Assembly (NCBI GenBank): GCA_026988235.1
Contig: JALSLQ010000074.1
Coordinates: forward strand, 1 to 40,406
Direction: 5' to 3'
DNA length: 40,406 nt
DNA from: Sulfurimonas sp.
GTDB lineage: Bacteria > Campylobacterota > Campylobacteria > Campylobacterales > Sulfurimonadaceae
The translations under genes were made by a program, and so were the position numbers. Positions 33,096 to 33,156 of this stretch are shown piece by piece. Under the pieces are notes generated by a model. That model had not been told where the DNA came from, did no database searches, and worked only from the letters and a program-made list of their open reading frames with translations. Numbering within the stretch: position 1 is the stretch's first letter; every line of letters begins with the position of its first letter.

Positions 33096-33156
33096 CTTAT
33101 ATAGTTTTGGAACTTTTCTGAATAAATATTCATTTTTGGTTCCAAAACTATATAAG
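33096..33156. promoter_or_regulatory. 18-bp perfect inverted repeat with nested palindrome in the divergent hypB/cbiM intergenic region
   Basis: CTTATATAGTTTTGGAAC (33096-33113) / GTTCCAAAACTATATAAG (33139-33156); inner TGAATA-AA-TATTCA (33119-33132). Confidence 0.9.

Follow-up and report, generated by a model that had tools for sequence, protein, structure and literature searches.

Nickel-related genes are controlled elsewhere by NikR (PMC2667541, PMC5385501), which with its operators governs both nickel uptake and hydrogenase genes, sometimes through one operator between divergent promoters (PMC5385501). In H. pylori, the NikR consensus is TRTTA-N15-TAWTA (PMC5385501). Proteins of mobile elements have also entered bacterial regulation. 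TldR proteins are reported to be RNA-guided transcription regulators derived from TnpB, a transposon protein adopted by bacteria (PMC13418256). A review of mobile-element regulators recruited by prokaryotes gives Ner/SfsB and antitoxins as examples, and the terms DDE and IS1595 are absent from it (PMC8987985). In the open-access literature, no hydrogenase-gene regulator of the IS1595 type was found; the sole open-access co-mention of IS1595, hydrogenase and transcription concerns Nitrosococcus oceani. Searchable papers likewise yielded no hydrogenase regulator of Sulfurimonas and its relatives, although these bacteria rank among the major oxidisers of hydrogen at vents and redoxclines. The present study of a 40,406-nt stretch of Sulfurimonas DNA (the window) makes it quite likely that an inverted repeat between hypB and cbiM is a double operator of a hydrogenase/nickel regulon, in which one element, box B, would be read by REG, an ex-transposase regulator, and another, box A, by a TetR-family protein.

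The divergent hypB and cbiM genes (Table 1) are separated by a region holding a perfect inverted repeat (33094-33113 and 33139-33158), with 20-bp arms that are 100% complementary and a 25-nt spacer enclosing a palindrome. The preliminary description had given 18 bp for the arms; the repeat and its nested palindrome are real, and its placement where one switch could serve both the hyp and the nickel-uptake operons is supported. Counting perfect inverted repeats with arms no more than 150 nt apart, 60 first-order Markov shuffles of the whole window reached at most 15 bp versus the 20 bp observed; therefore, the repeat is not due to chance. At 5320-5475 of the window, a perfect 18-bp GC-rich inverted repeat (AACGGCGAAGCTGAGCCC) has 120 nt between its arms and encloses a further 26-nt imperfect inverted repeat.

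Table 1. Regulatory elements and genes around the hypB-cbiM intergenic region of the window
Feature	Position	Strand	Sequence and evidence
Box B, left copy	33094..33114	+	TTCTTATATAGTTTTGGAACT; PWM score 30; 0 mismatches to RGTYCYRAAANTATATAAGAA
Box A palindrome	33119..33132	.	TGAATAAATATTCA; probable TetR-family operator; box A census, TetR-gene association
Box B, right copy	33138..33158	-	TTCTTATATAGTTTTGGAACC on minus strand; would serve cbiM promoter; PWM score 29.3; 0 mismatches
Candidate -10 of cbiM promoter	33192..33199	+	TATACAAT; picked by eye from sequence
hypB, first in hyp maturation operon (then hypC, hypD, hypE)	32257..33024	-	ORF; Pfam cobW/HypB/UreG 7.7e-21
cbiM, first in nickel/cobalt uptake operon cbiMNQO	33232..33879	+	Pfam CbiM 1.1e-60
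cbiN	33869-34177	+	ORF; identity from position and synteny
cbiQ	34164-34700	+	ORF; identity from position and synteny; without Pfam match
cbiO	34697-35452	+	ORF; ABC_tran 4.2e-33
REG, candidate box B reader, IS1595-transposase-derived	35471..36154	+	Zinc ribbon, HTH and degenerate catalytic domain; below-cutoff IS1595 matches
HycI-type hydrogenase maturation protease, downstream of REG	36151..36693	+	Pfam HycI 1.7e-19

Two hundred family genomes were searched with one arm and with the REG protein, and in many of them arm-like sequences lie just upstream of REG genes. A position matrix iterated on 60 fetched loci around REG homologues gave 75 matches in 61 loci versus 2 in all across three single-strand shuffled replicates. 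The unit that emerges in place of the repeat is a directional 21-bp element, box B (TTCTTATATAGTTTTGGGACT), of which each arm is one copy. Box B is nearly always single and, with REG adjacent, points to REG and away from the divergent target operon. The left copy in the window likewise reads away from its target gene as in relatives, pointing toward cbiM while it would serve the divergent hypB promoter. Two facing copies occur only in the window and in the nearest relative, G138, whose REG is 93% identical. Since the relatives are nearly all single-copy, and since the G138 arms have diverged from one another yet each still fits box B, the repeat would be two facing operators and no structure in its own right. 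The inverted repeat as a recognition unit, as first proposed, is thus not upheld by the single directional arm copies of the relatives and the imperfect arms of G138; what footprinting in relatives retains is the single box, the facing pair being confined to these two genomes. A genome-wide search for the half-site had also been suggested. The exact half-site has only two occurrences in the genome, but a third box B (3008-3028, contig C91), differing from the IUPAC box at one position, precedes the hydrogenase small-subunit gene together with box A (TGAATGATTATTCA).

These comparisons also bear on whether the repeat acts as structure, i.e., as an RNA hairpin, a bidirectional terminator or a cruciform between the operons. 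Folding of the 95-nt RNA gives -30.1 kcal/mol (z -8.2), which favours such a role. However, it matches no Rfam family at its cut-off, nearly all relatives have a single box unable to form a stem, and in G138 each box is kept while the arms differ from each other. In line with the preliminary description, the repeat does not look like a terminator: the terminator scan was negative (no GC-rich stem directly before a T tract), though the T run CTCTTTTTT sits a few nucleotides past the right arm. A structural role is therefore very improbable.

In Sulfurimonadaceae and some other Campylobacterota, single box B copies precede the hyp operon, the operon of the [NiFe]-hydrogenase small subunit (SSU), cbiM and nikKL. 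Outside Sulfurimonadaceae, an Arcobacteraceae record shows box B clearly, and several other records have it weakly or not at all. Its targets include SSU, cbiM, and either hypB itself or c9-hyp, c9 being a small membrane protein weakly similar to nickel/cobalt efflux transporters and followed by hypBCDE. Read toward the target, box B mostly stands about 40-105 bp before the start codon of c9 or hypB, SSU, or cbiM. Box A sits on the gene side of box B, in most cases no more than about 35 bp from the start codon, and the centre-to-centre distances of the two boxes, in locus coordinates, group around 60, 68-70 and 81 bp, at approximately helical-turn intervals. In G027, G010, G036 and G044 (L264-L267, around position 1501), box B lies upstream of a periplasmic gene pair that reading of the sequence identifies as nikKL-like.

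The occurrence of box B follows that of REG. For the c9-hyp promoter, a matrix built from SSU sites alone (score 8 or more) finds box B in 48/49 genomes with REG versus 2/25 without it. The SSU promoter usually lies about 10 kb from REG; there, a matrix from which SSU sites had been excluded detected the box in 19/21 genomes with REG, restricted to SSU of at least 70% identity, versus 6/19 without (Fisher p 2e-4), and in 19/21 versus 6/13 when the same identity limit was set on both sides (p 0.013); the genomes are related, so that all Fisher values here overstate independence. Across whole genomes, the IUPAC box, itself derived from genomes with REG, was matched at no more than 1 mismatch in 14/20 genomes with REG and 0/20 without (p 3e-6), almost all matches falling at hyp, hydrogenase and nickel-uptake loci. 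Most REG genes have box B immediately before them, a putative recognition site being kept upstream of regulator and targets alike, and it stays beside REG homologues of only 33-45% identity. Among the loci examined, some REG genes have no box B upstream, and in a REG clade of about 44% identity box B is absent from the hydrogenase promoters examined. In G072 (L238, 10909-11045), both boxes persist but no REG separates c9 from hycI1, which looks like a recent loss of REG.

Alternatively, another regulator (a response regulator, an FNR/CRP-like protein or other) could read box B, with REG having only a genetic linkage to the hydrogenase cluster, for example as an accessory protein. Six genomes without REG keep box B at SSU, and box B adjoins REG at many loci, where its linkage could be incidental and its loss together with REG can be passive. 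Against this, the distant SSU promoter loses box B in most genomes without REG, 20 such genomes have no box B at 1 mismatch, the box remains by the divergent REG homologues, and the architecture of REG is that of a DNA-binding protein. We consider this alternative unlikely. REG is probably the switch that reads box B, and the earlier suggestion that the IS1595-like protein of this locus reads the repeat gains strong comparative support from the co-occurrence.

Could box B instead be a NikR or Fur operator? The neighbouring genes are nickel-related, as would suit such a site. In contrast, box B is by inspection longer than the H. pylori NikR consensus and non-palindromic. Furthermore, a PF08753 search found no nikR in this genome (92.6% complete) and none in 193 of the 200 family genomes, NikR being present in only 7. 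The preliminary description had already seen no likeness to the E. coli NikR site, and the failure to find NikR in the genome makes a NikR site unlikely; a NikR or Fur operator has very little probability. NikR occurs without REG in G058 and G063 and together with it in five other genomes, indicating that the two are not strictly exclusive.

REG itself carries the marks of an IS1595 origin. It scores 23.2 bits against the Pfam IS1595 family (PF12762; cut-off 27) and 32.6 bits against NCBIfam IS1595 (NF033547; cut-off 75; E 6.9e-8). The four zinc-ribbon cysteines are invariant in 43 REG sequences, and REG keeps the HTH and a C-terminal signature around FW...LKE.EFKFN. As judged from this shared zinc ribbon, HTH and C-terminal motif, REG belongs to the IS1595-derived proteins. 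In an alignment with two genuine IS1595 transposases from relatives, REG lacks the second catalytic segment; V or T stands in place of the third acidic residue in 39/43 sequences, and the first catalytic position is E in 27 and D in 16. REG does not fit an active IS1595 transposase, as the DDE residues are not intact and the whole-protein match falls under both curated cut-offs. The AlphaFold model of REG has a mean pLDDT of 82, with ribbon and HTH confident. Its top Foldseek matches in the PDB include retroviral integrases and DDE transposases, none significant (best E 0.18), a result consistent with DDE/integrase kinship and nothing more, and a search against the sequences of solved structures gave no match. 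Conserved His or Cys residues occur nowhere outside the ribbon in the 43 sequences, which argues against REG being a classical nickel sensor. Homologues extend beyond Sulfurimonadaceae to Arcobacteraceae, Hydrogenimonas and Nitratifractor. Two REG-like genes are present in G034, G144, G172, G174 and G180, the second copy in G034 and G180 having only about 34% identity. Downstream of REG, the window ORFs 36151-36693, 36700-37350, 37271-39547 and 39519-40316 include two HycI-type maturation proteases and, beside hypF, another HypF-like gene, which has 640 aa in relatives and is cut here by the contig end.

The kinship of the linked gene with IS1595 could also mean that the arms descend from the terminal inverted repeats (TIRs) of an IS1595 element ancestral to REG. 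Yet the boxes are not placed around REG in the manner of TIRs: among inverted repeats within 150 nt, both window copies lie upstream of cbiM and not around REG. Moreover, the box recurs at several different promoters, and a genuine IS1595 element of the same genus (L129) has a dissimilar TIR (GGGGTAGTTACTTAGCTCC...). Such an origin of the arms is very improbable, and the speculation that ancestral TIR recognition underlies the repeat is not supported, given the same dissimilarity. No clear TIR was found for L130.

From the boxes, their conservation, the genes that they precede and their co-occurrence with REG, we infer how the locus may work. Each arm would be one directional binding box for REG, a host-adopted IS1595-family transposase that has lost catalytic residues, acting as a sequence-specific transcription regulator. 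The predicted binding position of REG is about 57-60 bp before the start site, or about two helical turns more distant at the hydrogenase operon. By-eye choice of the -10 elements places the centre of box B around -57 to -60 for c9 and cbiM and around -80 for SSU, positions that would be typical of an upstream activator. In the window, the candidate -10 TATACAAT would put the right copy at about -57; this element is weak in a promoter consensus scan, which favours TACAAT ending at 33211. Because these positions, resting on by-eye -10 elements, suit an upstream activator, REG may activate the hyp, hydrogenase and nickel-uptake operons. If REG and its target are divergent genes, this box falls near the -35 region of REG itself (-10 elements again picked by eye), and REG could autorepress. 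In the window, two divergent promoters face each other, and their two boxes would thereby make up the perfect inverted repeat, with a single box A in the spacer; through this box A, a TetR-family repressor encoded beside hydrogenase genes (contig C91, 5209-5772, in this genome) would act. The simplest model would thus have the target operons activated, REG autorepressed and TetR repressing via box A. A sigma-54 promoter was rejected by inspection: GG/GC spacing was considered by eye near REG, and the window copies are without GC.

The second conserved element, box A (TGAATRNNYATTCA), usually lies beside the start codon and precedes the hydrogenase, hyp and cbiM operons. It persists in genomes without REG (10/25 at c9 and about 12/19 at SSU), and it is kept in G138 with 1 mismatch. 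At no more than 1 mismatch, box A was found at 41/47 loci of genomes with a hydrogenase-linked TetR gene versus 2/7 of those without (p 0.0025); with exact matches only, the association is not significant (p 0.08). The palindrome in the spacer is therefore probably a separate conserved element of another, TetR-type regulator, and with moderate confidence we assign box A as a TetR-family operator. It resembles such operators in being short, palindromic and close to the start codon, and in tracking a TetR gene beside hydrogenase genes. Unlike box A's usual place, the window copy is centred between the two box B copies, far from both start codons.

Taken more broadly, it appears fairly likely that a catalytically dead IS1595-family DDE transposase serves as a dedicated hydrogenase/nickel regulator with a 21-bp box, at promoters shared with a TetR protein (TGAAT-N4-ATTCA), in Sulfurimonadaceae and some other Campylobacterota whose genomes are mostly without NikR. 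If so, this would be an unusual bacterial case of a DDE transposase turned transcription factor, and it would suggest what replaces NikR where it is missing. Hydrogenase regulation becomes directly testable here, given a defined box, a small regulon and a protein that is a candidate for reading the box. NikR is unrelated to REG, and box B is a directional 21-bp box and not a dyad. IS1595-family transposases (PF12762, NF033547) share the N-terminal zinc ribbon, the HTH and the C-terminal signature with REG; unlike them, REG stands in conserved synteny with hydrogenase genes, with no flanking TIRs seen among inverted repeats within 150 nt. As with the recruited regulators of mobile elements (PMC8987985), host genes would have come under the control of a mobile-element DNA-binding protein, although those proteins were already regulators before recruitment, unlike REG. 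Finally, whereas TldR is reported to be RNA-guided and to derive from TnpB (PMC13418256), REG, derived from a DDE transposase, would read DNA directly.
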